A model generated the notes under the pieces. It was not told the origin of the DNA and searched no databases. It saw nothing but the letters and a program-made list of their open reading frames with translations. This document shows, piece by piece, positions 5,710 through 20,576 of a stretch of DNA of 20,881 bases. Made by a program: the position numbers and the translations under genes. The DNA comes from a virus: the IMG/VR virus record IMGVR_UViG_3300047550_006818, positions 1-20,881 of that record. One strand, 5' to 3'. Every line of letters begins with the position of its first letter. Positions within the stretch are counted from its first letter, which is position 1.

Positions 5710-6782
5710 ATAGCATCTTCTTTAGAAATACCTAAAATTCTAGCTTTCCATGAAGACATGTTTTCGAATTTATCAGCTTCATCACGAACCGCTTTCTTTT
5801 GCATTTCAGCGATTTGAATCATCATCTTTCTTTCTTGCTCGTCTTGGAAAAGCTCAACAAGATTAATAATCGAAGCATTTTTTTGATGATGCATTTCTAC
5901 TCTTTTAGCTCTTTCACCATTTAATTTTTGCAACGACTTGTCGATACGTTGAGCACATTGATTATATTCTTCACTAATTGTTTTTAATATTTCTGTTAAA
6001 CGAATTGTCAAATCTTTTTGATCTTGCACATCATGAAACATTTCATTAACGGTGTTTTTCTTATTATCAATCTGTTTTAAATTTATATAATCCATGCATA
6101 CATTAATATATAAATTAATTTCATCGATTGTTAAATCTGGTTTATCCCAAGTCGAACGCACAAATTCCGCTTCAAATAAGTCTTTATCAGTGGCGCTACG
6201 ATAAGTATCGTAATTTTGTATAAATCTTGGACTAGAAAGATAAACCAATAACCTCTCTAAACATTTTCTATGTTGAAGGCTTAATTTATTTTCATCTATA
6301 TCTTGCCCACACCATTTATTAACTTTTTTAATTACTGAATTAATACTACGTGGAACAACATATTTTTCATTAACCGCTGATTCGTTTTCAACCAAATAGT
6401 CTGGATATTTTTCTTTAATAAATTTATGAATCGCTCTATATTGTGGAGTGATAAAAATATTAACACTCTTAACGTCTTGAAAATCTTTATTAAATAATAA
6501 TTCTGTAATCTGCTTGGGAGAAATACCTGTTTTAATATTTTGCTCAATAAATTCAATATGGTTTGGAGTTAAAGAAAATTCTTGAACAGTGTTTTTATTT
6601 TTTTGTTTCTTATTTAAAACTCCAGATTCAATCATGAAGTCACGAACCAATTTACAAGGTTTATCGCGTCCAGTTAGATTTTCTTGTCCAAGCATTAAAT
6701 TAGCAATAACTACATAATCCGTAAAACCTTCTTCAATTTTTTTAGAAATAAATATTTTTTGATCTTCTGTTAGATTATTCAT
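5706..6782 (-). CDS. Hypothetical protein with two HTH-like repeats and a coiled-coil tail; candidate small terminase
   Basis: This 358-residue protein is not recognised with certainty. The N-terminus carries two similar helical segments, LTEDQKIFISKKIEEGF (4-20) and LTPNHIEFIEQNIKTGIS (71-88). Each is followed by a stretch that could complete a helix-turn-helix. The middle (about 140-240) is helical. The C-terminus (about 255-345) is strongly charged and looks coiled-coil. A DNA-binding N-terminus, a helical oligomerisation region and a place two genes upstream of terL would suit a small terminase that recognises phage DNA, but it is longer than most. It overlaps the sigma factor gene by 8 nt and the nuclease gene by 4 nt. 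The gene itself is secure; the function is an inference. Confidence 0.85.
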   Translation of the reverse strand: MNNLTEDQKIFISKKIEEGFTDYVVIANLMLGQENLTGRDKPCKLVRDFMIESGVLNKKQKNKNTVQEFSLTPNHIEFIEQNIKTGISPKQITELLFNKDFQDVKSVNIFITPQYRAIHKFIKEKYPDYLVENESAVNEKYVVPRSINSVIKKVNKWCGQDIDENKLSLQHRKCLERLLVYLSSPRFIQNYDTYRSATDKDLFEAEFVRSTWDKPDLTIDEINLYINVCMDYINLKQIDNKKNTVNEMFHDVQDQKDLTIRLTEILKTISEEYNQCAQRIDKSLQKLNGERAKRVEMHHQKNASIINLVELFQDEQERKMMIQIAEMQKKAVRDEADKFENMSSWKARILGISKEDAI

Positions 6783-7497
6783 TGGAGAAAATATCGTGTT
6801 CTTCTAAAATTTGTTTCGCTTTTAAATAAAGTAATTTCTTTAAATTTTTTATTTGCTTATAACCCGCCTTACGACCTTTTTCTGATGTTCTAAATTTCAA
6901 AAATCTTGCAACTTCATCATCAGTTAAACAATCAATAAAAAACATTTTATAAATAAAAAAATATTTATCATTTAAATTAGCTTTCATAAGAGAATGTAAT
7001 TTATTTTCAGCATTTAAAAAATCCACGCTATCAGCTTGCTTGATATTTAAATGATAATTTTTATGATTTTCTAAACTAACAGGAATTTTTAAATCATAAG
7101 CACTTTTTTTAGTTTTTTCCCATTTAGCAAATAATGGACATTCACTACATTGTTTTTTACTAGGAGTGAAACCACAAGAATCTTCTATGCCTTTATCTAA
7201 TGATGTTTTATTTTGATTAAAAGAACATGATAAACAAGGTTTAGCAAAAGAGCTGTAATTATTTCTTATAATATTACGTAATTGATTCGTAACAATTCTA
7301 TTTATCCAAGGCTCAATAGCGCGAGATTGATCCCATAAATGCCACTTATTATAAATATGAAGCTTAATCATTTGCTCAATATCTTGAAAGTCAAACCAAG
7401 CAATGGCTTTAAGCTTCCATTTCATTTGGCGCTTTTTGATTATTTGATCAATCACTTCATACATTTCCTCAAATTTTTTTTTATTTTTACGGCTCAT
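6775..7497 (-). CDS. Phage late sigma factor, gp55-like, with a cysteine cluster
   Basis: This 240-residue protein resembles sigma-70 family factors. Residues about 30-85 look like region 2: FDFQDIEQMIKLHIYNKW followed by IEPWINRIVTNQLRNIIRNNY, with the conserved W, N and R pattern of the core-binding and -10-recognition helices. Residues about 189-232 look like a region 4-type helix-turn-helix (DCLTDDEVARFL, then a Lys-rich helix). Between them lies a cysteine cluster, C88-x2-C91, C108 and C117-x2-C120, likely to bind zinc. T4 gp55 (185 residues) directs host RNA polymerase to late promoters; this protein is longer mainly through the insert. It overlaps the zinc-ribbon gene by 11 nt. Which promoters it reads cannot be told here, since no convincing TATAAATA site precedes the genes in this window. 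Confidence 0.85.
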   Translation of the reverse strand: MSRKNKKKFEEMYEVIDQIIKKRQMKWKLKAIAWFDFQDIEQMIKLHIYNKWHLWDQSRAIEPWINRIVTNQLRNIIRNNYSSFAKPCLSCSFNQNKTSLDKGIEDSCGFTPSKKQCSECPLFAKWEKTKKSAYDLKIPVSLENHKNYHLNIKQADSVDFLNAENKLHSLMKANLNDKYFFIYKMFFIDCLTDDEVARFLKFRTSEKGRKAGYKQIKNLKKLLYLKAKQILEEHDIFSNE

Positions 7498-8648: not shown

Positions 8649-9692
8649 ATGGTTTTTCACTGTCTAAGTATTCCGTATGCACCCACAAGAAAAGAAATTT
8701 CTTTATGCGCTTTTATTCAAAAAGTATATAAATTTTGTGACGAAATGACAAAAAGAGGCCACACTGTTTATCATTATGGTCATGAAAATTCTATTGTTAA
8801 TTGCACTAAACATATTAATGTTACTAATGATGATATTTTAAAAAATGATTATGGCAACTTAAATTATTGGCAACAAACAGGTTTTGATCAAAATGTTGAA
8901 ACACAAACATTTAAAATATTTAATAAAAATTGTATCACAGAAATAGAAAAAAGATTAAAAGATAAAAATGAATTTATACTTTGCTGGTTTGGATTCGGAC
9001 ATCTTGAATGCGCTGAACACTTTAAAGACAGAGCAATTATTATAGAACCTAGCATTGGATATGATTCAATGTTTGCACCAATTAAAATTTTTGAAACAAA
9101 AAGTCAATTAAGCAAGATGCATGGAATGGCACAAACCAATGTAAATTTTGAAAGAGAATATGTTGTATATCCCGGTTTTGATAGAAATGATTTCGAATAT
9201 AAATCTGAAAAATCTAATACAGCATTATTTTTGGGTCGAATTATATCAGAAAAAGGCGCAAAACTTGCATATGATATTTGCAATCATATAGGACAAGAAA
9301 TTATTTTTGCAGGACCAAATATAATGAATTTACAAGATACTGAATACTGTAAATTTATTGGATTTGTAGAACCGAAACAAAGAAAACAATTATTGAGCAA
9401 TGCAAAATTTTTATTTGCACCGAGTTTATTTATTGAGCCTTGTAATTGGACCGTTATTGAAGCTCAATTTTCAGGAACACCCACAATAACCACAGATTTT
9501 GGCGGCTTTGCAGAAACAGTAGCTCAATTAAAAACTGGATTTCGATGTTTTGACGCTGCAACTATGATTCATTCTATATTAAATATTAAAGACATAAATC
9601 CAACAGAATGTTATAAAAATGCAATAGATAAATTTACAATAGAAAAGCAGTGTGATAATTATGAATTTATTTTTAATTCATTGATGCACTGA
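8649..9692 (+). CDS. GT4-family glycosyltransferase, the only plus-strand gene
   Basis: This 347-residue GT-B enzyme of the GT4 type transfers a sugar from a nucleotide-sugar donor. The C-terminal donor domain shows LFLGRIISEKGAK (193-205), then FAPSLFIEPCNWTVIEAQF (256-274), which contains the EX7E pair E263/E271, and a following GTP...TDFGGFAETV. The N-terminal domain is less conserved and includes a GHTVYHYGHE motif (37-46). No membrane segment or signal peptide is seen, so it acts in the cytoplasm. The ATG at 8649 is used because the ATG at 8642 is out of frame. No Shine-Dalgarno is visible. The gene runs against the rest of the operon and its 3' end overlaps the neighbouring O-heptosyltransferase-like gene tail to tail by 34 nt, which suggests separate acquisition. 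Confidence 0.9.
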   Translation: MVFHCLSIPYAPTRKEISLCAFIQKVYKFCDEMTKRGHTVYHYGHENSIVNCTKHINVTNDDILKNDYGNLNYWQQTGFDQNVETQTFKIFNKNCITEIEKRLKDKNEFILCWFGFGHLECAEHFKDRAIIIEPSIGYDSMFAPIKIFETKSQLSKMHGMAQTNVNFEREYVVYPGFDRNDFEYKSEKSNTALFLGRIISEKGAKLAYDICNHIGQEIIFAGPNIMNLQDTEYCKFIGFVEPKQRKQLLSNAKFLFAPSLFIEPCNWTVIEAQFSGTPTITTDFGGFAETVAQLKTGFRCFDAATMIHSILNIKDINPTECYKNAIDKFTIEKQCDNYEFIFNSLMH

Positions 9693-10519
9693 TCTATTTT
9701 TTGTTTAACCATATCAAAAGAAATTTCTTTACTGCATTCAAATTTTTTATTATTTGGACAGTACAACCAACCTTCCGATAAAATCCTATCTTTATTGTTT
9801 ATAGATTCATCGTTCAAACAACCATGACAAACATTTTTATTTATTACCCTATAATTATTAGAAATAAATTCATTATTTTCTTGGGTGCAACCGGAAATCA
9901 TTACGACTTTTTTATTTAAAGCCCATGCTAACCAACTTAATCCACTGCTTAAGCCAATAAAAAATTCACAATTTTTAAGCTGTTCTATTCTGTATTCAAT
10001 AGGATAATTTCCTGTTTCATTAAATGCTTTTTGAGGTATATGATTCCAATGGCCAGATATGCCAAAAATCTCATCTTTATCAATTGCATAAACATCATAA
10101 CCATTATCTTTTAGATACTTAATAGTTTTATTCCATCCTGAATTGTTATTCCAATATTTCATTTGACAAGTAGATTGAATTCCAATGCATACATATTTTT
10201 TCTTTTTCTTAAATTTATATTTATCAAAATTTTTTATTGAAGGAATTATTTCTTTATAATCAATTCCCAATTGATCGCAAATTAATTTTTGTATTGGACA
10301 ATTTTTAAAATGAAAATTAATTTCAAATATTTTATCATATGAAATATTCTCAGATTTATTAATGAAATGAACATTTTCATTATTTGACTGAAGAATATTA
10401 TGCCATTTTGTTTTTACAAAAACTTTTCCGCCATATTTTTTTTGATATAAATCTGCATATGGAGAAAAAGCGATATTGTCACCAAGAGCTTCTGTTATAA
10501 AAATAATACAAGTAGTCAT
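9659..10519 (-). CDS. Stand-alone O-heptosyltransferase-like protein (TibC/Aah type)
   Basis: This 286-residue protein resembles the bacterial autotransporter heptosyltransferase family, GT9-like enzymes that attach heptose from ADP-heptose to Ser residues. Key stretches are ALGDNIAFSP (11-20), GIQSTCQMKYWNN (113-125), FIGLSSGLSWLAWAL (187-201) and VVMISG (205-210). Four cysteines lie in C231-x2-C234-x19-C254-x7-C262; in TibC-type enzymes such a set binds iron. It is a paralogue of residues 1222-1503 of the 1733-residue protein encoded just upstream (3-nt gap). The usual N-terminal part of TibC/Aah is missing, which is common for phage versions. No ADP-heptose synthesis gene is seen here, so the donor may come from the host or be another sugar. 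Confidence 0.87.
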   Translation of the reverse strand: MTTCIIFITEALGDNIAFSPYADLYQKKYGGKVFVKTKWHNILQSNNENVHFINKSENISYDKIFEINFHFKNCPIQKLICDQLGIDYKEIIPSIKNFDKYKFKKKKKYVCIGIQSTCQMKYWNNNSGWNKTIKYLKDNGYDVYAIDKDEIFGISGHWNHIPQKAFNETGNYPIEYRIEQLKNCEFFIGLSSGLSWLAWALNKKVVMISGCTQENNEFISNNYRVINKNVCHGCLNDESINNKDRILSEGWLYCPNNKKFECSKEISFDMVKQKIDQCINELKINS

Positions 10520-10522
10520 TGA

Positions 10523-13500
10523 TTATGAATATTTTTTTTCTGTTTTATCGATATAAGAATATCCCTCAAATTCAAAACAAATTTTATCAGTGTTAAATCT
10601 TAAAAACTTTTCACCTTCTCTTTCAAAACAATAATTTAACCACCAATCAAAAGCATGAAAATCATATTTATTAAAAATATATTTATAAAAATATTTATGT
10701 TTTTTAGAAATAATATATAAATGTGCTCCCCATATATTTTCAATAGAATAAATATCATCTATTATTTTATTTTCACTTTTAATTTCATCTACGCTTCTTC
10801 CAAATGTGAAAAGTTTATAATTAGTTTTTTCTAATATTTGGATAGCTTTTTCGAAAAAAGTTTTAAAAGATTTAGAATCAGTTAAAATTTTACTATCTCC
10901 TTCGGAAACAACTAAATAATCATAATCGTTTTCATTTTCAAAAAAATCTAAAATAGCATCAGTATGGGCTTTGTAACAGCCATAATGTCGAGGAGTTAAA
11001 CCAAACTCATCAGATTTTTTATCGATTTTAATCCAATGTGTATTGTTTTCAAAAACTTTCAAATTTTCAGGGAAAGCATCGTAAATTTTTGAATTTTTTA
11101 TACAATAATTAACATACGGCATTAAAGAAAAACCATTAATAATATTTTCAATAGATAATTTTTCTTTGTTTCCGTTTTTATCAGAAATTAAATGAGCCAA
11201 TAGGATCTTTGGATTCTTAAGATCAGATAACAATAAATCTATTTTTTCTTTTACCATTTCAAAAGTTATTTCTTTGGTACATTCAAAATTTTTATTTCTA
11301 GGGCACCAAGACCAATTTCCTTTGTCGAATAAAATTTCTGGATCGTTCCAGCAACTATTACAAATATTTTTATTATGAACTCTATATGGAGTATAGAATT
11401 CAGATTTTGGATCTGAAAAACCAGAGATCATAACAACTGGTTTTCCAATCGCCCAAGCTAACCATGATAAACCTGAACCAAGGCCAATAAAAAAATCGCA
11501 AAAATAAAGATCGTTAATTCTCTCCTCCAAGGAAATATCTCCTGTTTTATCTAATGAATTATAAGGAATAGAATTAACATATTGACCATAACCTATATTA
11601 TTATGCTTATCAATAGATACGACTTCGTATCCTAAAGATTTTAAATAATCAACTAATTTAATCCAACCGCCTTCATTATTCCAAAATTTTGCTTGCGCAG
11701 TAGATAAAGATCCAATGCAAATATATTTTTTATTAAAATTATTTCTAAGATTTTTTGGTAAAGAAATTTTTGGACGAATTTCAATATACTCTAAACCTAA
11801 AATTTTAAATGCCAGTTCTTGTAAATTAAATTCATTCCATTTTTTATTATTAATATCAAAACATCCTAACGAATAATCAACCGTATTAGGTTTTTCATTA
11901 TAATTATAAAAATTTATATTTGAATATTCTTTTTCAAACAATTCTTTATATGGAGTATAATATTTTACTTTGCAGCGATGAATTTTTTGAAAATGATCAA
12001 CTACTGGAACCCAAGCTATATTGTCTCCAAGAGATCCAGATTCATTAACAATTGAAATTGTTTTTTCTGAATAAGCGTAAATAACGCCTTTCTTTTGATT
12101 AAAATCATCAGTTAATTCATAATTTAAATTAAAATGCTCAATTAAAAAATTATTTGATTGCAGTTTATTTAAAATACAATCACGCAATAGATGACCATCA
12201 TTATGATGATACTCAATAATAAATGATTTAAATTTTTTAATGATATCATCAGTTAAATATTTAAATATTTCATATTCAAAACCTTCAATATCTATTTTTA
12301 AAACATCAATTTTTTCTAATTTATATTTTTTAAAAATAGAATCAATTGTACAAGTTGGAACTGAAATTGTTTCAATATTTTGCAAATCATTTCCATCCGC
12401 TTCAGTTTGTTTATCAAAATAAAAAGATGTTAAAGTGGAATTACCGCAAGTAGTTAAATTAACTGTTTCTTCTTTAAAAGATAAAGCTTTATTTTCTAAA
12501 TAAACTTGTTGGATATTTTTAAAAGTTTCTTGTAAAACACCAAAAGATTTTGAAGGTTCTATAGCAATAATTTTACTAGCTTTTTTAGATAAACAAAAAT
12601 CAACAAAAGTACCACAACTAGCTCCAACATCTAAAACAATATCATTTTCTTTAATAATTGATTTATAAAAATCTTTTGAATAAAAATCAAAACTCTGAGA
12701 AAAGAAATTATCATATAAACATAAATCCAAATCAGTAGAAAATTTAAACTGCCTTTCATGTTTATTAGTATGGCAATCAGGATTTATCGGAATTTCAATA
12801 TCAAAAAGAAGTTTATTATTTCTGTAAGCAATAAATTTAAAACCAGTAAAAATATCTATATCTAGTTCTTTTTCTAAATATGGGCTTGTAAAATATTCCC
12901 AGCCTTGAATAATCGAAAAACTCTGTCTATTATTTATATAAGATAAATTTAAATTCTTTTTTAAATCTTTAACGATTAAAATAAAATCGCGAATATCTTT
13001 TGTTGTGTAAAAGAATAATTTATTTTTTGATTTTTCGTATTTAAAATATAAACCCGATAAATCAACAGACGCATCACAATAAATAATTTTATGATTTATA
13101 TTTTTAAGTATTGAATTTGAATGGTTATTAAACTTTTTAGATACAGAAAATTGCAAATTATCGTTTGAATCATAAACATTAAATAACACTTCATTAACTG
13201 AAGATTTTAACTCCGCTAATGCAGAAAAATACTCACATCCATATTCGCAAGTTATTTTATCTTCAAAAAGAATAGAATTATCATCGGCATTTAAAAATTT
13301 TATTTTAGCATCTACATTAAAAATTGAATTATTTGTATATCTAATTCCTAAATTATTATGAGTAAAACCTACAAAAGAAATTGATGCAGATGATAAAGTT
13401 TTTTGTAATTCCATGATATTATTAAATGCGATTTTAGCTGAGTTGATCCAAGAAAAATTCTTAATTATAATAGAAGATTCATCGATACTTTTCTTTAAAA

Positions 13501-15724
13501 ATTTATCATAATTTTCATAAATTTCAATCATTTTATTTTTCAAATCATCAAAATCAGGAATATAATAATCACCTTGAATGCTTTTACAAAATTGTTCTGA
13601 AATGAATTTGTCCGCTTTTTCTTGTGATTTGATTTTGATTGGAATGCCTAAATTTTTTGCAAACTCTAATTGACCACTGCATTCAGAATAAATTGAAGGA
13701 ACTCCACATGCCATTGCCTCTATCAATGGCAAATTCCAACCTTCTCCTTTTGAACAAGATAAAAATACATGAATAGATTTCAAACAATCAACATAATCTT
13801 GTTTAGTTAAAAAATTCAAAATACGAATATTTTTGCTTTCAAGATTATAATGCTTTAATCTATTTTGTGTATTTTTTAAACCATCTATATCATATGGATT
13901 ATCAACAGATAATAAAAGTTCAACATTTTCATTATTTTTAAATAAATTATTAAAACATCGAATCAAATCGATAGTACTTTTTCTTTGATCCCAGCGACCA
14001 AAAATCGCAAAAGTAAATTTATTTTTTAATTTTTTATTTTTAGTATTGAAAACATTTTCGTCAACACCCAAAGGTACAATTCGGATTTTATCAGATGGAA
14101 ACCCTTGTTCAATCAAACAATTTTTTTGCCATTCAGATGGAACCCAAAATTGATTAAATTTTTTAATTTGATCTAAAAAGTCATTTGGAAACTCAGTTGT
14201 TTCATACATGCTATAAGCAATTTTTGGACCTTTATAATCATCATAAAAATAATGATGATAAGATTCATTTATGACTAAATTAATATCAGGTTGATAATTT
14301 GCTTGATAATTATATATTGGATAATCAGTTCTTGAACCATCTTGATTATATAAAGTTTGTGAATGCAATATTTTCTTATGATTCTCTTCTATATCTAAAT
14401 CATGGGGAGTTAAATTATAACTTTTCCAATTATTAAAAATAGTATAATTTCTAACTTTAACATCGCATATATTATTTAATTCCAGTAATAAATTTTGACA
14501 GACAGCATTAAAACCCCCATTACCGACAAAACTGCAACTCGTTAAAACTTTCAATTTATTTTTATCTAAATCTTTTAGGTAATCGAAAGCTAAAGAAGCG
14601 GCATTTTCCCAAGTAAATGTTTTAGCAATATCTTTTGCCTCATCTAAAGCTTTTTGTTTATAAAAACTATAATTTTTATAAACATCTAGCATTTTATTTT
14701 TTAAATCATCAAAATCCGGTTCGTACCAATAACCAGGAGAAATTTGATTTTTATTTTGTAAAAAATCTTGAGCTAAAACTCTGTTTTTAATTTTTACTGA
14801 AATACCTTTTCCTTCTGCAAATTCCAATTGACCACTGCATTCCGAATAAATAGATGGAGTGCCACACGCCATTGCCTCAAGCAAAGGAATATTCCATCCC
14901 TCACCTCTGGCACAAGATAAAAATACATGTCCCTTTTGTAAATATTCTATATAATCTTTACGGTCTGGAAAATTTAAAACTTTAATATTCGGAGCAATTA
15001 AATTATATTTTTTGAGTCTTTCATTTGTATTAGAACATCCATCATTATAAAATCCGCTTTCAGTTGATAAAACTAATTCAACATTTTCATTTTTTCCAAA
15101 AACATCAATAAAACATTTAATTATTTCTTTAGTACTTTTACGATCACACCAAGCCCCAAAAACCAAAAATCTAAATTTATTATCATCATAATTAATATCT
15201 TTTGGATAATAAACAGTTGAATCAACCGCTTCGGGAACAACTTTTATTTTATTCTCGAACATTCCTTGTTCAATCAACATTTGACGTTGCCATTTTGAAG
15301 CGACCCAAACTTGATCAAATTCTTTCAATTTTTCAAAAAAATTTTCTGGGTATAATGAATTTTCCCAAACATTATAAGCTATTTTATATCCTTTATAAGA
15401 ATCATAAAAATAATAATGATCTACAGTATTTAAAATAATATTGATATCAGGTTCAAAATTACTATCGTAATTATAAATCGGAAAATCTTTTCTTTGATTA
15501 TTAATATCCCATAACGTTTGAAGATGAAGAAGATTTTTATCTAAATCCGAGGCATCGATTCCATGATAATCATAATCTGTACATGGATAACCTTTCCAAT
15601 TTTTCCCTACTGTGAAATTTCTTATTTTTAAATTTACTTTTTCACTTAATTTTCTAAAAAACCCCTGTGAGTGAGCATTATATCCGGTCGTGCCGATGTG
15701 GCTTGTATGAGCTAAAACATTCAT
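10523..15724 (-). CDS. 1733-residue multi-enzyme: GT4-GT4-beta linker-FkbM methyltransferase-O-heptosyltransferase-like-GT25-like
   Basis: One uninterrupted frame joins five enzyme-like domains. GT4 copy 1 (1-385) has EX7E E275/E283 in GEGWNIPLLEAMACG, and GT4 copy 2 (391-775) has E661/E669. A beta-rich linker spans about 780-1000. An FkbM-type SAM methyltransferase (about 1015-1220) shows VLDVGASCGTF (1030-1040), IAIEPS (1053-1058) and LKIDIEGFEYEIF (1142-1154). The O-heptosyltransferase-like domain (about 1222-1503) has GSLGDNIAW, FIGLGSGLSWLAWAIGKP and the four-cysteine set C1455, C1458, C1474, C1482. A GT25-like domain (about 1505-1733) has LTPRHYGCYKAHTDA (1576-1590) and VVSEGD (1605-1610), where GT25 enzymes usually have EDD. 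The start overlaps the upstream stop as ATGA. No transmembrane segment or signal is seen. It probably builds and methylates an oligosaccharide in steps; the acceptor is unknown. Confidence 0.92.
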   Translation of the reverse strand: MNVLAHTSHIGTTGYNAHSQGFFRKLSEKVNLKIRNFTVGKNWKGYPCTDYDYHGIDASDLDKNLLHLQTLWDINNQRKDFPIYNYDSNFEPDINIILNTVDHYYFYDSYKGYKIAYNVWENSLYPENFFEKLKEFDQVWVASKWQRQMLIEQGMFENKIKVVPEAVDSTVYYPKDINYDDNKFRFLVFGAWCDRKSTKEIIKCFIDVFGKNENVELVLSTESGFYNDGCSNTNERLKKYNLIAPNIKVLNFPDRKDYIEYLQKGHVFLSCARGEGWNIPLLEAMACGTPSIYSECSGQLEFAEGKGISVKIKNRVLAQDFLQNKNQISPGYWYEPDFDDLKNKMLDVYKNYSFYKQKALDEAKDIAKTFTWENAASLAFDYLKDLDKNKLKVLTSCSFVGNGGFNAVCQNLLLELNNICDVKVRNYTIFNNWKSYNLTPHDLDIEENHKKILHSQTLYNQDGSRTDYPIYNYQANYQPDINLVINESYHHYFYDDYKGPKIAYSMYETTEFPNDFLDQIKKFNQFWVPSEWQKNCLIEQGFPSDKIRIVPLGVDENVFNTKNKKLKNKFTFAIFGRWDQRKSTIDLIRCFNNLFKNNENVELLLSVDNPYDIDGLKNTQNRLKHYNLESKNIRILNFLTKQDYVDCLKSIHVFLSCSKGEGWNLPLIEAMACGVPSIYSECSGQLEFAKNLGIPIKIKSQEKADKFISEQFCKSIQGDYYIPDFDDLKNKMIEIYENYDKFLKKSIDESSIIIKNFSWINSAKIAFNNIMELQKTLSSASISFVGFTHNNLGIRYTNNSIFNVDAKIKFLNADDNSILFEDKITCEYGCEYFSALAELKSSVNEVLFNVYDSNDNLQFSVSKKFNNHSNSILKNINHKIIYCDASVDLSGLYFKYEKSKNKLFFYTTKDIRDFILIVKDLKKNLNLSYINNRQSFSIIQGWEYFTSPYLEKELDIDIFTGFKFIAYRNNKLLFDIEIPINPDCHTNKHERQFKFSTDLDLCLYDNFFSQSFDFYSKDFYKSIIKENDIVLDVGASCGTFVDFCLSKKASKIIAIEPSKSFGVLQETFKNIQQVYLENKALSFKEETVNLTTCGNSTLTSFYFDKQTEADGNDLQNIETISVPTCTIDSIFKKYKLEKIDVLKIDIEGFEYEIFKYLTDDIIKKFKSFIIEYHHNDGHLLRDCILNKLQSNNFLIEHFNLNYELTDDFNQKKGVIYAYSEKTISIVNESGSLGDNIAWVPVVDHFQKIHRCKVKYYTPYKELFEKEYSNINFYNYNEKPNTVDYSLGCFDINNKKWNEFNLQELAFKILGLEYIEIRPKISLPKNLRNNFNKKYICIGSLSTAQAKFWNNEGGWIKLVDYLKSLGYEVVSIDKHNNIGYGQYVNSIPYNSLDKTGDISLEERINDLYFCDFFIGLGSGLSWLAWAIGKPVVMISGFSDPKSEFYTPYRVHNKNICNSCWNDPEILFDKGNWSWCPRNKNFECTKEITFEMVKEKIDLLLSDLKNPKILLAHLISDKNGNKEKLSIENIINGFSLMPYVNYCIKNSKIYDAFPENLKVFENNTHWIKIDKKSDEFGLTPRHYGCYKAHTDAILDFFENENDYDYLVVSEGDSKILTDSKSFKTFFEKAIQILEKTNYKLFTFGRSVDEIKSENKIIDDIYSIENIWGAHLYIISKKHKYFYKYIFNKYDFHAFDWWLNYCFEREGEKFLRFNTDKICFEFEGYSYIDKTEKKYS
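13400..15724 (-). repeat. Tandem duplication of the GT4 domain inside the 1733-residue protein
   Basis: Residues 1-385 and 391-775 align along their whole length, including YNYD/YNYQ, CARGEGWNIP/CSKGEGWNLP and a shared stretch EAMACG(T/V)PSIYSECSGQLEF. At DNA level, short blocks are identical in both copies (for example ACAAGATAAAAATACATG near 14920 and near 13752). This points to a fairly recent duplication or to gene conversion. Both copies keep the EX7E pair, so both may be active, perhaps with different donors or acceptors. Confidence 0.85.
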
Positions 15725-17604
15725 CCTAAAAATTTTAATAAATTATTATAAATAATTTTTCCAGTTTGTTTCTCGATTATTCTAACAGAAAAATCCTTAG
15801 ATGTCAACAAACTTTCTTCTATAAAATCAATATAATAAAGCTGATAATCATAAATATTTTGATTATCAAGAGTCAAAAAAACTTGATTGTTTTCATTATC
15901 AAAAACCTCAAAATAAACTAATTGATTAAAAGTTTTAGAATTAAAAAATCCTTTTTTATGAAAAATTAAACTTTTTTTGCGTGTAGTATAATAACAAATT
16001 ATTTCATTTTGCACTATAATTTGATTTAGATATTTATTTTTAATATCTTCAAATTCTTTAGCAGTTTTCATTTTATGGAAACATAATATATCATTTACGT
16101 GTTCTGGAAGTTTTTTATTAATTGATGATTCAATATTTTTACCGTATCCATAATTAGAAAAAATATCTAAATTATTTATATCATCAGTTTCTTCGATATC
16201 TACAGTGGGCAATGAATTAATATAATTATATTTCGCAAGTAATATATTATCGGCATCTTCATCATGAATTGCAAAAATTCCAAATTCTGTATTTTTATAT
16301 TTTACATAAAGCTCAATAGCTTCGTTAAAAAAAGATAAAGACTTACTGTCATAAACAATAAAATTGGCTTTTCTTCTTGGAAATAAATAATTTTCAACAC
16401 CAATCTTTTTACCCAAAATAGCAATAGGAGAAATGCATTGGCCACTATTTTGATAATTATTCACAACGATATAATCATAAAGATTTAAATTAAATAATGG
16501 ATAATTTTCTAGTTGATTAAAATATTTAGTCACTGAATCACAATTGACAGTTAAAAATAAATCGGAATCGATATAAACCATTTTTTTATCTGCAAATCTT
16601 TCACAAGAATCTTTTAAAATGTAAGATTTTATATTTTTTATTAAATCTACATCATTTTTCGCATCAAAATCAAATCTAATCGATACAAATTGATCATCAT
16701 TTAAATCTAAATCTTTAATGACATCAATTTTATAATCTATGGAGTAAATAATTATTTTTCTATTCGAAAACATACGCAATGAATTCAACATTTCTTTTGC
16801 AAATTGTTCGTAGTTTTTATCAAAATAAGTTACCCAATAAAAATCATCTTTTAATATTTTAGAGCAATACGTTTTTAAACAATCTTCAGTTTCAAAAAAT
16901 TTTAAATCATTTTTAAAATAAAAATGAAATAATAATTTTTCTTCGTTATTTATATAAAGTTTTTTATTTTTTACAATAGAACAATCAAGATGTTTTCCAT
17001 TTGAACCGACATTTATTAAGTGGCCTAGATCACAAATAGAAACATTATTTTGCTCTAGTATTTTTACTAAATATGTCTCATCCAATGATTGATATTTTGA
17101 ATGTTGTAATAGTAATTTATAATCATTTATGTTTTTATAAAAAGTATTGAAAATTAAATTATTTTTCCATATACAAAATGGACCACGAATACCCGGAAAA
17201 TAAACCTTATCTCCAATTGAAATAAATTCTTGATTTAAATGAGGTTCAAGCAAATTGTAAATATCTCCCCATAAAATATCGATATCATAAAATCCTACAT
17301 AGTCATAATTCAAAAGATAATCACTAAAAATATCAGCATAAATTATTTTATGATCACAAAGTTTGTAAAAATTTGTTAACTCAATTTTAAAACCTAATTT
17401 TTTAAATATAAACTGCTTATATATTTCAGGGTTTAAATATTTTATCTTAATATTAGAAGCTGCATTTTGAAAAATTGAATCTTCCGATTGATCTGTAAAA
17501 AATAAAAAATCAATATTTTTTTGATTATTGCATGTTTGCAAATGAAATTTAAAATAATCCGGTAATTTTCCAAACCAAACTTGAATAAGACAAATTTTTT
17601 TCAT
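15721..17604 (-). CDS. Two-domain GT-A glycosyltransferase with C-terminal beta module
   Basis: This 627-residue protein has an N-terminal domain (about 1-250) resembling the DUF6625-type glycosyltransferases: CLIQVWFGKLPDYF (5-18), DFLFFTDQ (32-39) and YVGFYDIDILWGD (102-114), with D107/D109 as a candidate metal-binding DxD. A second GT-A domain (about 255-510), GT8-like, has YWVTYFDKNYEQFA (256-269) and MVYIDSDLF (342-350) with DxD D346/D348. The last 75 residues (about 549-625) form a predicted all-beta module similar to parts of two neighbouring enzymes. It starts directly after the stop of the methyltransferase gene (TAAATG) and overlaps the 1733-residue gene by ATGA, so the three are probably translationally coupled. 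Sugar and acceptor are unknown. Confidence 0.88.
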   Translation of the reverse strand: MKKICLIQVWFGKLPDYFKFHLQTCNNQKNIDFLFFTDQSEDSIFQNAASNIKIKYLNPEIYKQFIFKKLGFKIELTNFYKLCDHKIIYADIFSDYLLNYDYVGFYDIDILWGDIYNLLEPHLNQEFISIGDKVYFPGIRGPFCIWKNNLIFNTFYKNINDYKLLLQHSKYQSLDETYLVKILEQNNVSICDLGHLINVGSNGKHLDCSIVKNKKLYINNEEKLLFHFYFKNDLKFFETEDCLKTYCSKILKDDFYWVTYFDKNYEQFAKEMLNSLRMFSNRKIIIYSIDYKIDVIKDLDLNDDQFVSIRFDFDAKNDVDLIKNIKSYILKDSCERFADKKMVYIDSDLFLTVNCDSVTKYFNQLENYPLFNLNLYDYIVVNNYQNSGQCISPIAILGKKIGVENYLFPRRKANFIVYDSKSLSFFNEAIELYVKYKNTEFGIFAIHDEDADNILLAKYNYINSLPTVDIEETDDINNLDIFSNYGYGKNIESSINKKLPEHVNDILCFHKMKTAKEFEDIKNKYLNQIIVQNEIICYYTTRKKSLIFHKKGFFNSKTFNQLVYFEVFDNENNQVFLTLDNQNIYDYQLYYIDFIEESLLTSKDFSVRIIEKQTGKIIYNNLLKFLG

Positions 17605-18243
17605 TTATTTGATGAAATACCAAGAACCAAACCATTCTTCAGTAGTGTAAAATTTAGTATTTATTTCTGAACAAAATTCATCAACTGCTGGGTTCACACC
17701 AAATAAACCAGCATAATGAGGAAATTCATTGTTATTTTCAATTGCTGAAGCCCAAATATGTTTATCTTTTTTGTTTTCATGGAAATTAGGATCTGTATAC
17801 CAATCTATTTTTAAATAATCATGACCAGCAACAACTCCACCTTTTCTTACTTTCGGATACCATAATGATATATCTTGTTTTATAAAATCGTATTGATGAT
17901 TAGCGTCTATGTAAACAAAGTCTAGACTTTCATCATTAAACAAATCAAATGCATTTAAACTCGTAGCGCGAATTAAAAAACATCTATCTTGATGATTATT
18001 TATATTATCAACGCATTTATTTATGATATTATGGTAATTATTTTTATTTTGATGATAATTGTATTCTTTTTCGGAAATTTCATTCCATATATCAATTAAA
18101 TATAATTTGCCACTCCATTTTTCTAAAATTGATTTGGCAAAAAAGCCTTCATGAGAGCCAATTTCGACACCTTTATTTAATAAGCGTTTTTCTTCGAATA
18201 AGTTAGTTAACTCTTCTCTTGTTTTATAAGCGCCTAAATTCAT
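17605..18243 (-). CDS. Class I SAM-dependent methyltransferase
   Basis: This 212-residue protein has the glycine-rich SAM motif GVEIGSHEGFFA (25-36), an acidic second motif LYLIDIW (47-53) and LDFVYIDANHQYDF (106-119), followed by KVRKGGVVAGHDY. This is the pattern of Methyltransf_24 / TylF-like small-molecule or sugar O-methyltransferases. The length is normal. It sits between the PLOD-like enzyme (4-nt gap) and the two-domain glycosyltransferase, whose ATG directly follows its stop. It may methylate a sugar in the glycan made by its neighbours. It differs from the two FkbM domains of the block, so more than one methylation position is possible. The target is inferred. Confidence 0.87.
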   Translation of the reverse strand: MNLGAYKTREELTNLFEEKRLLNKGVEIGSHEGFFAKSILEKWSGKLYLIDIWNEISEKEYNYHQNKNNYHNIINKCVDNINNHQDRCFLIRATSLNAFDLFNDESLDFVYIDANHQYDFIKQDISLWYPKVRKGGVVAGHDYLKIDWYTDPNFHENKKDKHIWASAIENNNEFPHYAGLFGVNPAVDEFCSEINTKFYTTEEWFGSWYFIK

Positions 18244-18247
18244 ATTC

Positions 18248-19237
18248 TTAATTAATCGATATTTTATTTAAAAAATCAAAAATATTTTCTTCGTATTCAT
18301 TATCAAACTCGGCAATAAGATTATTATCGATATCATAAAACATAAATTTGAATCTACCAACTAAATCTTTACGCAAAGAAATATAATAATTATACATGTA
18401 TTGTAAGTTCATTTCTGTTTCATAAATTATTTCATTCAATTTATTAAAAACTTTAACCTTTGTATATATATCATCGAAAGGATGAGAAGCGTTTGTAAAA
18501 TACATTCCATTTTTATTTTCTAACCAATTCAAAAGTGCAATTTCAGGATTTTTAAATCCAAAAAGAGTATTAATTTTATCGAAACCATCAGTACCGTTTC
18601 CATGAAAAACACAAGGTTGTGTATTAGTTATTTTGTTTAAAAATCTATTGTTTTGTTTTTCGAAATTCGATAGATTTTCAAAAATCAAAGATTGGAAAAT
18701 TTGATTTTCAGTATCAGCTTTTATTTTTATATTATTTAACGTAGGAAAAGCAAAAATATTATATAAATATTGATCATCTGAAAGCAAACGAGTATCTGAT
18801 AAAACTGCGTTCGAAAAATACGATAAAAAGTCCAAATATTTTTTTAACATTGCATTTTTAAATATCAAACATCCAGCATTGATAAAAGTATCATAAGAAC
18901 AATAAGTTTTTAATTTTTCATCAGGCCAACAGTTCTTTTCGACAGAATGAAGAATATCAATATTCATATTCAAGAATTTCTGTTCTATCTCAAGGTCGGG
19001 CGCTACTGTGATAGTATCAAATGCGTCCACGCACATAATCACTTCATCATCAGGATAATCATCAAGAATTTTTCTTAATTTATTAATTTTTAAATCTAGA
19101 TACGATATAAAAACATCATCATCAATATATAAATTATAATCGTTGCCGTTTTCTAAAAAACGATTGATGTTTTTACATAGAAATGGAAACTTAGGATGAT
19201 CACGAAAGTTCTTATCAGCTTGCAGAATTATTTTCAT
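18248..19237 (-). CDS. PLOD/LH3-like glycosyltransferase with C-terminal beta module
   Basis: This 329-residue protein resembles the glycosyltransferase domain of procollagen lysyl hydroxylase LH3 and its viral relatives. Markers in order are VIMCVDAFDTI (67-77, metal-binding DxxD D71/D74), ILHSVEKNCWPDEKL (95-109), TFINAGCLIF (117-126), LSDDQYLY (152-159), a following ADTENQIFQSL (174-184) and CVFHGNG (209-215). LH3-type domains add galactose or glucose to hydroxylysine in collagen-like sequence. No lysyl hydroxylase domain is present here, so the acceptor may differ. Residues about 246-312 form a beta module like that of the 627-residue protein. The ATG at 19237 lies 26 nt after the FkbM gene. 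The family call rests on several shared motifs. Confidence 0.87.
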   Translation of the reverse strand: MKIILQADKNFRDHPKFPFLCKNINRFLENGNDYNLYIDDDVFISYLDLKINKLRKILDDYPDDEVIMCVDAFDTITVAPDLEIEQKFLNMNIDILHSVEKNCWPDEKLKTYCSYDTFINAGCLIFKNAMLKKYLDFLSYFSNAVLSDTRLLSDDQYLYNIFAFPTLNNIKIKADTENQIFQSLIFENLSNFEKQNNRFLNKITNTQPCVFHGNGTDGFDKINTLFGFKNPEIALLNWLENKNGMYFTNASHPFDDIYTKVKVFNKLNEIIYETEMNLQYMYNYYISLRKDLVGRFKFMFYDIDNNLIAEFDNEYEENIFDFLNKISIN

Positions 19238-19263
19238 TGTATTTATTATTCTTCGTCAATATA

Positions 19264-20238
19264 TCATTTTTCAATAAATTTGTTGTTATATTTTAAATTT
19301 TTAGCGTAAATCATGCCGCTATCTTCATTAAAATATTTAATTTCATAAATAAAATTATTTTTTTCAAAAAAGTTTATTATTTTTTGGCATTGTCCGTGGT
19401 ATTCTAAAACAATTTTATTAACATTTTCACAAATAAAAGATTCATTTTTATCTGTAAAAATATAATGTTCGCCGCCTTCACAATCTATTTTTAGAAAATC
19501 TATAAATTTTATGTCATTTAATTCAATAAAATTTAAGAAATCAATACCTTGAATTTTTTGGATTTTATAGTTTGAATGGATTTCTTGATTCGTTAAAATA
19601 AAATTTCTGCCATCAGTATCATCTAAAAGCATCAAATTTTTTTCTTCTGTTCTGTCTGAAATAGCATAATTATTAATAAAAATGTGTGGATAAATGTCAA
19701 AATGACTTTTTAATATATTTATGCATTCAATATTTGGTTCGCAGCAATATATTTTAGAAGCTTTATGCTTCATGGCATAATAAATAAATCCGCCAACATT
19801 AGAGCCAATATCAACAACAACATCGTTTTTATTTAATGGAGTTATTTTAGATTCATATATGTTTTCGCAAAAAATTTCACTAACTATTGTTTTATCAATA
19901 TAATGGTTATAATAATTTAAAAGATAAGGAAATTTCTTTAATAAAGATAAATCTTGTTCTTTTTTGAGTTGAACTGTTTTATAGAAAATTTTTCCATTTT
20001 CGTGAAACATTTCGATGCAAACAGTATCTGAATAAGGCAATGGAAAAGCCGCCCAATAAATTACATCTTTAGAGAAACAAGCATTATACCAATACAAAGA
20101 AACATAAAACTTCGGATCGGAAAATTTTATTTTTATATTCTTGTTGCTGAATTCGTTATTTAAAAGTTTGAAATCTAATTTAACAGCTTGATTCTCTGTA
20201 ATAACACAGTCAACAATAGAAAAATTATCATTAGTCAT
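19264..20238 (-). CDS. FkbM-family methyltransferase with N-terminal beta domain
   Basis: Residues about 130-310 of this 324-residue protein form an FkbM methyltransferase: VVDIGSNVGGFIYYA (141-155) binds SAM, CCEPNIECI (165-173) is the second motif, and FLKIDCEGGEHYIF (248-261) and VLEYHG (277-282) are diagnostic of the family. FkbM enzymes O-methylate hydroxyl groups of polyketides and sugars. The first 100 residues are predicted beta and may bind a glycan. A similar layout, beta region then FkbM, occurs at residues 880-1220 of the 1733-residue protein, and the residues just before the SAM motif also look related. The gene lies 17 nt downstream of the small acidic protein gene. No Shine-Dalgarno is seen. 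Confidence 0.88.
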   Translation of the reverse strand: MTNDNFSIVDCVITENQAVKLDFKLLNNEFSNKNIKIKFSDPKFYVSLYWYNACFSKDVIYWAAFPLPYSDTVCIEMFHENGKIFYKTVQLKKEQDLSLLKKFPYLLNYYNHYIDKTIVSEIFCENIYESKITPLNKNDVVVDIGSNVGGFIYYAMKHKASKIYCCEPNIECINILKSHFDIYPHIFINNYAISDRTEEKNLMLLDDTDGRNFILTNQEIHSNYKIQKIQGIDFLNFIELNDIKFIDFLKIDCEGGEHYIFTDKNESFICENVNKIVLEYHGQCQKIINFFEKNNFIYEIKYFNEDSGMIYAKNLKYNNKFIEK

Positions 20239-20255: not shown

Positions 20256-20576
20256 TTAGTCTGATTCTTTCTCAATAAATTTCTTGATCATAGATGTAAA
20301 AAACTTCTCAAAGCCAATGTTTTTAATGCATTCGCTGATCTTTCTGCTCGCGACAAACTTACCAACAATCTCGCCCTCAAAACAATCATCTTCATCTTCT
20401 TCTGGTAAAGTAGTAAGCAGACTCAAGTCATCCACTTTCATGATGATGACCTCTATTGTAGTTATATCTTCGCCAAATTCAAGAAAAGGTATCTTCTTGC
20501 GGTAAACGCCTTCGGCGTCAGGGAGGGCGGCCATCCTTTTGCCCCGGCCATCCTTATATATTAATATATAATCCAC
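20256..20576 (-). CDS. Small acidic protein of unknown function
   Basis: This 106-residue frame starts with GTG at 20576; an alternative in-frame ATG lies at 20534 (residue 15), directly preceded by AAAAGG, too close for a normal ribosome site. The product is acidic in the middle (LPEEDEDDCFEGE, 57-69) and ends with a helical, lysine-rich segment. No domain is recognised. The DNA is visibly GC-richer than its neighbours and uses more C- and G-ending codons. That could mean a different origin or strong constraint. It is the first gene of the leftward series before the non-coding stretch. It is likely but not certainly a real gene. Confidence 0.6.
   Translation of the reverse strand: MDYILIYKDGRGKRMAALPDAEGVYRKKIPFLEFGEDITTIEVIIMKVDDLSLLTTLPEEDEDDCFEGEIVGKFVASRKISECIKNIGFEKFFTSMIKKFIEKESD
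20528..20555. repeat. Pair of 11-bp direct repeats near the start of the small acidic gene
   Basis: CGGCCATCCTT occurs at 20528-20538 and again at 20545-20555, with a 17-bp period. On the minus strand each reads AAGGATGGCCG, which places AAGG next to ATGG in two different frames. Because 17 is not a multiple of three, the repeat does not reflect a protein repeat. Two protein-binding sites or a small tandem duplication are possible. Confidence 0.6.

Follow-up and report, generated by a model that had tools for sequence, protein, structure and literature searches.

The block of glycosyltransferase and methyltransferase genes at positions 8649–20238 of the window, the whole stretch of DNA analysed (a 20,881-base IMG/VR virus fragment), is probably a phage protein-glycosylation locus, with which the phage would glycosylate a collagen-like fibre of its own virion by means of TibC-type, extending, and methylating enzymes. 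Domains, conserved catalytic residues, synteny, and a recurrent linkage to collagen-like genes form the observed basis of this reading.

Seven open reading frames (ORFs; 347, 286, 1733, 627, 212, 329, and 324 aa) cover 99.7% of the interval, confirming the seven nearly gap-free genes of the original prediction at their coordinates. Its statement that six of the seven run with the head and packaging genes also holds: six lie on the minus strand, as do PhoH, terL, and the 678-aa gene adjoining terL, and the 347-aa GT4 gene is convergent. The features are given below.

8649–9692, plus strand: GT4 glycosyltransferase, 347 aa (Pfam PF00534, 3e-14; PHROG 3408 glycosyltransferase, 2.5e-63; synteny).
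9659–10519, minus strand: TibC-type O-heptosyltransferase, 286 aa (PDB 4rap TibC; NCBIfam TIGR04414 hepto_Aah_TibC; residue check).
10523–15724, minus strand: polyprotein of 1733 aa, GT4-GT4-beta linker-FkbM-TibC-like-GT25-like (Pfam; PDB TibC; GT25/COLGALT1 C-terminus).
14555–15724 (boundaries approximate), minus strand: polyprotein GT4 domain 1, EX7E at residues 275–283 (PF00534 in two stretches; motif).
13355–14554, minus strand: polyprotein GT4 domain 2, EX7E at residues 661–669 (PF00534 at 562–693; motif).
12695–13354, minus strand: polyprotein all-beta linker region (AlphaFold2 model, low confidence here).
12071–12694, minus strand: polyprotein FkbM methyltransferase domain (PF05050, 6.7e-17; SAM motif VLDVGASCG; methyltransferase fold).
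11213–12070, minus strand: polyprotein TibC-like O-heptosyltransferase domain (PDB 4rap; aligned catalytic residues).
10526–11212, minus strand: polyprotein GT25-like domain, related to procollagen galactosyltransferase (COLGALT1 and GT25 profiles; Foldseek).
15721–17604, minus strand: 627-aa protein with DUF6625 (GT-A-like, DID; PF20330, 8e-38), a probable second GT-A domain (DSD), and a C-terminal extension.
17605–18243, minus strand: Methyltransf_24 family methyltransferase, 212 aa (PF13578, 2.2e-17; relatives of 55–59% in blocks L093, L096, and L101).
18248–19237, minus strand: PLOD/LH3-type glycosyltransferase domain with C-terminal extension (PF25342; LH3).
19264–20238, minus strand: FkbM methyltransferase with N-terminal extension (PF05050, 1.4e-9; TIGR01444, 3e-17, over cut-off).
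20256–20576, minus strand: 106-aa conserved gene at the 5' border of the slot (relatives of 33–77% in L055, L083, L087, L097, L098, L103, and L104).

The seven ORFs carry some twelve domains of glycosyltransferase or methyltransferase type, of which one has weak support; roughly eleven catalytic domains had been predicted, and these were largely confirmed by Pfam, profile, and fold comparison, with the count corrected to twelve. Pfam profiles confirmed three GT4 domains (one stand-alone gene and two in the 1733-aa protein), two GT9/TibC-like, two FkbM, one Methyltransf_24, one PLOD/LH3-type, and one DUF6625 domain, and the GT4 EX7E, DxD, and FkbM SAM motifs are intact. Membrane segments were found in no block protein and in no other protein of the window, and Pfam detected neither a lysyl or prolyl hydroxylase nor an autotransporter there. 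The window likewise holds no donor-sugar genes, so that the predicted "complete pathway" could not be upheld; heptose-pathway-like genes occur in some TibC-carrying relatives. A fold assignment for the beta linker was dropped, the confidence of the AlphaFold2 model being too low, and the T4-type late promoter TATAAATA was uninformative (13 sites against 7 expected, on both strands).

TibC of Escherichia coli is an O-heptosyltransferase for Ser residues in autotransporter adhesins. Both GT9 regions of the block match it far better than they match LPS heptosyltransferases: polyprotein residues 1222–1498 align with PDB 4rap at E=4.6e-60 and the 286-aa gene at E=3.1e-44, the TibC-type catalytic domain scoring 206 bits against 4rap. 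With TIGR04414 the 286-aa gene reaches 212.4 bits (equivalog cut-off 200), and with the LPS heptosyltransferase I profile 24 bits. Asp110 is catalytic in TibC, and Cys339, 342, 358, and 370 form its iron finger, positions that the enzyme requires (PMC4358343). The 286-aa gene keeps them as D14 (D110) and C231, C234, C254, and C262 (iron finger), and the catalytic Asp and four Cys of the polyprotein domain align with TibC as well. Among 44 domains of the family the Asp and Cys342 are each conserved in 43, Cys358 and Cys370 in 41, and Cys339 in 37, the first iron-finger Cys being replaced by Ser in six. By profile and residue evidence, both "heptosyltransferases" are predicted TibC-type protein O-heptosyltransferase domains. 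The label "TibC-type", rather than true bacterial autotransporter heptosyltransferase (BAHT), is used because the 286-aa gene lacks the N-terminal beta-barrel (TibC residues 1–97) and matches TIGR04414 only from profile position 87 on; a full-length form is present in L195.

The predicted PLOD-like and GT25-like domains were both recovered. For the former, PF25342 matches at 1.7e-20 and the LH3 glycosyltransferase domain (6wfv) at 9.6e-10. The latter, at the C-terminus of the 1733-aa protein, is undetected by Pfam, matches structure-based profiles of COLGALT1 (E=1.5e-4) and GT25 (E=7.6e-4), and in Foldseek has COLGALT1 at the top and a PBCV-1 capsid glycosyltransferase (2p6w) at rank 17. As to two other predicted GT-A domains, DUF6625 is confirmed; the second, in the 627-aa protein, is suggested by a recurrent weak similarity in relatives (22–28%) and a DxD motif, the 627-aa protein having no match in PDB or among phages. 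Hydroxylysine, or a sugar already bound to it, is the substrate of LH3 and COLGALT1. The repeats of the candidate fibre hold almost no Lys, so the LH3-type and GT25-type domains here more probably act on the growing glycan.

Relatives were gathered by a terL scan (at least 598 matches in one collection), and the slot was compared in the 24 relatives with enough sequence; terL and the TibC domain were used because the 1733-aa and 627-aa proteins, as IMG/VR queries, gave no confirmed relatives. The slot, which precedes PhoH-zinc ribbon-sigma-like gene-358 aa-ERCC4-terL, holds a glycosyltransferase/methyltransferase block in all 24. Every block has between one and three TibC-like domains, most include an ORF longer than 900 aa, and GT2, GT4, TibC, FkbM, and other domains are combined differently from one to the next. 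TibC-like domains occur in only one of 65 random viral loci, and the occupancy of the slot is therefore not chance. The convergent GT4 gene (65–81% identity in most relatives) is lost in L084 and L091. In the closest long relative (L003/L083; terL 91%, polyprotein 69%) the LH3-type catalytic domain has been lost, and an 82-aa ORF, 46% like its C-terminus, remains. Judged from these gene contents, the reshuffled block looks like a diversifying cassette. Searching beside terL of related phages for the same block had been proposed as a check, and its result points to virion fibres. Genome contigs yielded only three terL matches, in two Flavobacteria-labelled MAGs and one Patescibacteria MAG; naming a host from these was rejected as too weak.

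Twenty relatives extend at least 7.2 kb beyond terL. In 17 of them a Ser/Thr-rich collagen-like (Gly-Thr/Ser-Ser)n protein is encoded 6.4–7.4 kb past terL, and two more have a version with GGS-type repeats, so that all but one carry a collagen-like fibre 6–10 kb past terL. The exception, L053 (contig G019), has no GXY within 10 kb and GXY repeats only at the far end of the contig; L003, the closest long relative, has the gene. In the fibre of L055 the GXY repeats span 690 aa, among them 419 Ser/Thr and only 3 Lys. These proteins match PHROG tail-fibre and collagen-like minor-tail families, and collagen-like adhesin models. The window is cut off within the gene that follows the 678-aa neighbour of terL, several kb before the fibre locus of the relatives, and the fibre gene is therefore not visible in it. 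Of the predicted "glycan on a virion protein", the protein acceptor is now the best reading, because of the TibC-type chemistry, the absence of membrane segments from the window, and the recurrent linkage to Ser/Thr-rich collagen-like virion genes; the acceptor, likely the collagen-like fibre, would be encoded outside the window's sequence.

As the collagen idea came from the relatives, the linkage was tested elsewhere, in TibC-domain relatives without the core genes of the window (20 clusters) and in 65 random viral contigs as control (44 clusters). Ser/Thr-rich GXY repeats accompany five of the 20 TibC clusters against one of the 44 random clusters (Fisher p=0.01) and are absent within the fetched flanks of the other 15, counts that are not fully independent, given how often tailed phages carry collagen-like genes and given the virion module common to sister lineages. 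In L166, L185, and L153 a glycosyltransferase polyprotein is followed by one or two small genes and then by a collagen-like gene, that of L166 being 963 aa long with 711 aa of GXY. L195 has, in order, a collagen-like gene, tandem GT4, full-length TibC (322 bits, fused to a dehydrogenase), and alcohol dehydrogenase-like, transketolase-like, and heptose-7-phosphate-kinase-like genes; L178 has a TibC polyprotein, alcohol dehydrogenase-like and heptose-kinase-like genes, and a collagen-like gene. The heptose kinases of both are best hits below the equivalog cut-off. The random contigs also served as a blind control: L264, the only one of the 65 with TibC-like domains, has a collagen-like gene as well, and the gene directly after it belongs to GT25, with human procollagen galactosyltransferase 1 and mimivirus R655 as relatives.

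Among annotated phages, only four records have a TibC-like match. In Microcystis phage Mel-JY01 a collagen-like frame and, after it, a structural protein precede a GT4-GT4-FkbM-TibC protein; in the huge phage LR756501 (735 kb; sister record LR756503, of equal length) the TibC polyprotein adjoins a collagen-like gene. LR756504 has no Ser/Thr-rich GXY repeat within 20 kb of its TibC-like locus; a true GmhA gene lies at a distance of about 27 kb, this being the only record with GmhA/SIS genes. A nucleotidyltransferase of G025 and G044, below every equivalog cut-off, was rejected as a heptose synthesis gene, since it scores better as glycerol-3-phosphate cytidylyltransferase. The convergent GT4 gene has its best relatives in cyanophages. 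That of S-CAM7 immediately follows a pair of collagen-like genes and is itself followed by a 2OG-Fe(II) oxygenase and a tail protein; that of ACG-2014f is preceded by a gene annotated as collagen triple helix repeat protein and followed by one for a putative short tail fibre. The relative in a Streptomyces phage (25%) has no annotated collagen gene as its neighbour.

From this evidence we infer the donor, the acceptor, the order of steps, the methyl caps, and the biological role as follows. The soluble enzymes of the block would most likely act inside the infected cell, in its cytoplasm, either ahead of assembly or while it proceeds. TibC-type domains would start on the many Ser/Thr of the (Gly-Thr/Ser-Ser)n fibre, encoded just downstream in the late operon, the first sugar being most likely heptose from ADP-heptose, which probably comes from the host or, in some phages, in part from genes of their own. 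GT4, LH3-type, GT25-type, and GT-A domains would extend the chain, FkbM and Methyltransf_24 enzymes would O-methylate it, fusion into proteins of more than 1000 aa may channel the steps, and reshuffling of activities between phages could vary the coat. Protection, adhesion, or antigenic variation are the probable roles of such a glycan coat.

The customary view of glycosyltransferase clusters in phages is that they are directed against host DNA defences or the sugars of the host surface. One rival reading is accordingly that the enzymes, in the course of infection, alter the surface polysaccharide of the host (O-antigen or exopolysaccharide), for instance to keep competing phages out, the linkage to virion genes being only incidental. 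It is the usual reading of such clusters in related aquatic phages (Pelagimyophage paper, PMC7029224), and the mosaic variability of the block resembles that of polysaccharide loci. Membrane-bound partners would be expected in that case, whereas the window has no flippase, polymerase, ligase, membrane-bound transferase, or Gtr proteins; the TibC-type domains, which by the bit scores above are protein O-heptosyltransferases rather than LPS enzymes, and their recurrent adjacency to collagen-like virion genes are left unexplained, and we regard this reading as rather improbable. Acceptors among other virion or host proteins (major capsid protein, tail tube, tail sheath) have precedent in the capsid and tail-tube glycans of mycobacteriophages (Freeman 2023, as cited in PMC12619734 and PMC11256854), and a 1317-aa gene, by eye a putative tail sheath, comes after the closest TibC-like gene (71%) in L127. 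It is the collagen-like gene, though, that recurs as partner across lineages and has the densest Ser/Thr repeats, which makes another acceptor improbable to a somewhat greater degree.

Phage glycosyltransferases can also hypermodify DNA. Such hypermodification is cited in PMC12619734; for the present block it is unlikely, and we attach very little probability to it: no member of the thymidylate-synthase/hydroxymethylase family was found in ten records of the own and sister lineages (some of more than 100 kb, all fragments), and the relatives TibC, LH3, and COLGALT1 act on proteins.

Glycosylation of the collagen-like fibre, the preferred reading, has its closest enzymatic parallel in the TibC/Aah O-heptosyltransferases (BAHT, TIGR04414), with which the block shares the catalytic domain, catalytic Asp, four-Cys iron finger, and, as proposed, a repeat-rich Ser acceptor. 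It differs in the beta-barrel missing from the window gene, in the fusion of the polyprotein domain to GT4, FkbM, and GT25, and in the proposed acceptor, a collagen-like phage fibre instead of an autotransporter. BclA-type exosporium glycoproteins have collagen-like, Thr-rich repeats with O-glycans bearing O-methyl sugars. They resemble the fibre in these repeats and differ in being bacterial spore proteins served by other glycosyltransferases; their glycan is a tetrasaccharide (PMC6222408). Soluble multi-domain GT-GT-methyltransferase proteins are also found in the capsid glycan system of chlorovirus PBCV-1 (A064R/A061L; PMC9614988), of which one glycosyltransferase domain, 2p6w, is a fold match of the GT25-like domain; they build a methyl-capped virion glycan in PBCV-1, as the enzymes of the block would do here. 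The families here are GT4, TibC, and FkbM, and an O-glycan on a fibre is proposed in place of the N-glycan on the PBCV-1 capsid protein. Mycobacteriophage glycosyltransferases likewise decorate virion proteins, with capsid and tail tube as acceptors, and no TibC-type or collagen-linked block is reported for them in the accounts cited above.

Phage virion glycosylation, TibC heptosylation, viral collagen glycosylation, and GT-GT-methyltransferase enzymes of virion glycans are each already known; the literature searched contained no account of their combination in tailed phages, with a tie to collagen-like fibres and diversification at one fixed locus, and a search for phage, heptosyltransferase, and collagen gave nothing relevant. 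The proposed system would join TibC protein heptosylation to collagen glycosylation and to the self-glycosylation of giant viruses, all three known themes, and a large group of uncultured aquatic phages, that of the terL relatives, gains a concrete candidate acceptor together with a candidate enzyme for initiating the glycosylation of virions. Surface variation among phages of the group could be due to the mosaic block. We see an even chance that several lineages of aquatic tailed phages have a dedicated, modular, fast-diversifying O-glycosylation of collagen-like virion fibres, TibC-type-initiated and with heptose synthesis partly phage-encoded, as a "coat-switching" locus comparable to a bacterial O-antigen locus.

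Viral collagen glycosylation is described for mimivirus L230 (PMC4691112). Mimivirus (L230, R655) and the animal enzymes LH3 and COLGALT1 share with the present phages LH3-type and GT25-type domains, near viral collagen-like structural genes. The present system differs in belonging to a phage, in lacking a fused lysyl hydroxylase domain, in having Ser/Thr-rich repeats with almost no Lys, and in the TibC-type enzyme present in every block examined here. 2OG-Fe(II) oxygenases lie in the equivalent loci of S-CAM7 and L264.

Among relatives of the window phage, the 240-aa gene on the packaging side is conserved at 64-86%; judged from its sequence, it could encode a T4 gp55-like late sigma factor.

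Window 6775-7497, 240-aa gene, weak match to sigma-70 region 2 (E=0.027)

Within the packaging operon, about eight relatives have an additional FkbM methyltransferase gene, flanked by the 358-aa gene on one side and the ERCC4 gene on the other.

L086:13586-14254, extra FkbM methyltransferase gene
L088:10997-11662, extra FkbM methyltransferase gene
L092:12707-13369, extra FkbM methyltransferase gene
L098 and others, extra FkbM methyltransferase gene

In L070, a near-identical relative (terL 97-99%), terL (L070:1590-4667) is interrupted in frame by an insertion of about 404 codons, placed at residue 78/79. Pfam detects a LAGLIDADG domain there, along with an intein splicing domain that scores close to the threshold, so terL of this phage group can, on domain content, host an intein. 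Two other terL relatives, L119 and L120 (61% and 81% identity, respectively), lie on contigs whose bins are labelled Flavobacteriaceae and Flavobacteriales, which points only weakly to the host.

In L195, a relative by its TibC domain that lacks the core genes of the window, a short-chain dehydrogenase is fused to a TibC-type enzyme (L195:2927-5671); transketolase-like and heptose-kinase-like genes are its neighbours, and the set possibly represents a phage heptose pathway.

The collagen-like frame of Microcystis phage Mel-JY01 (L082:2-3052) is split in the deposited record into two hypothetical genes on the antisense strand plus a C-terminal fragment; low-complexity coding DNA has probably been misannotated here. 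Two 2OG-Fe(II) oxygenase genes, one in cyanophage S-CAM7 and one in a random viral contig (L264), adjoin collagen-like genes and glycosyltransferases; the collagen-like repeats might be hydroxylated by their products.

L274:16978-17571, 2OG-Fe(II) oxygenase, cyanophage S-CAM7
L264:5086-5784, 2OG-Fe(II) oxygenase
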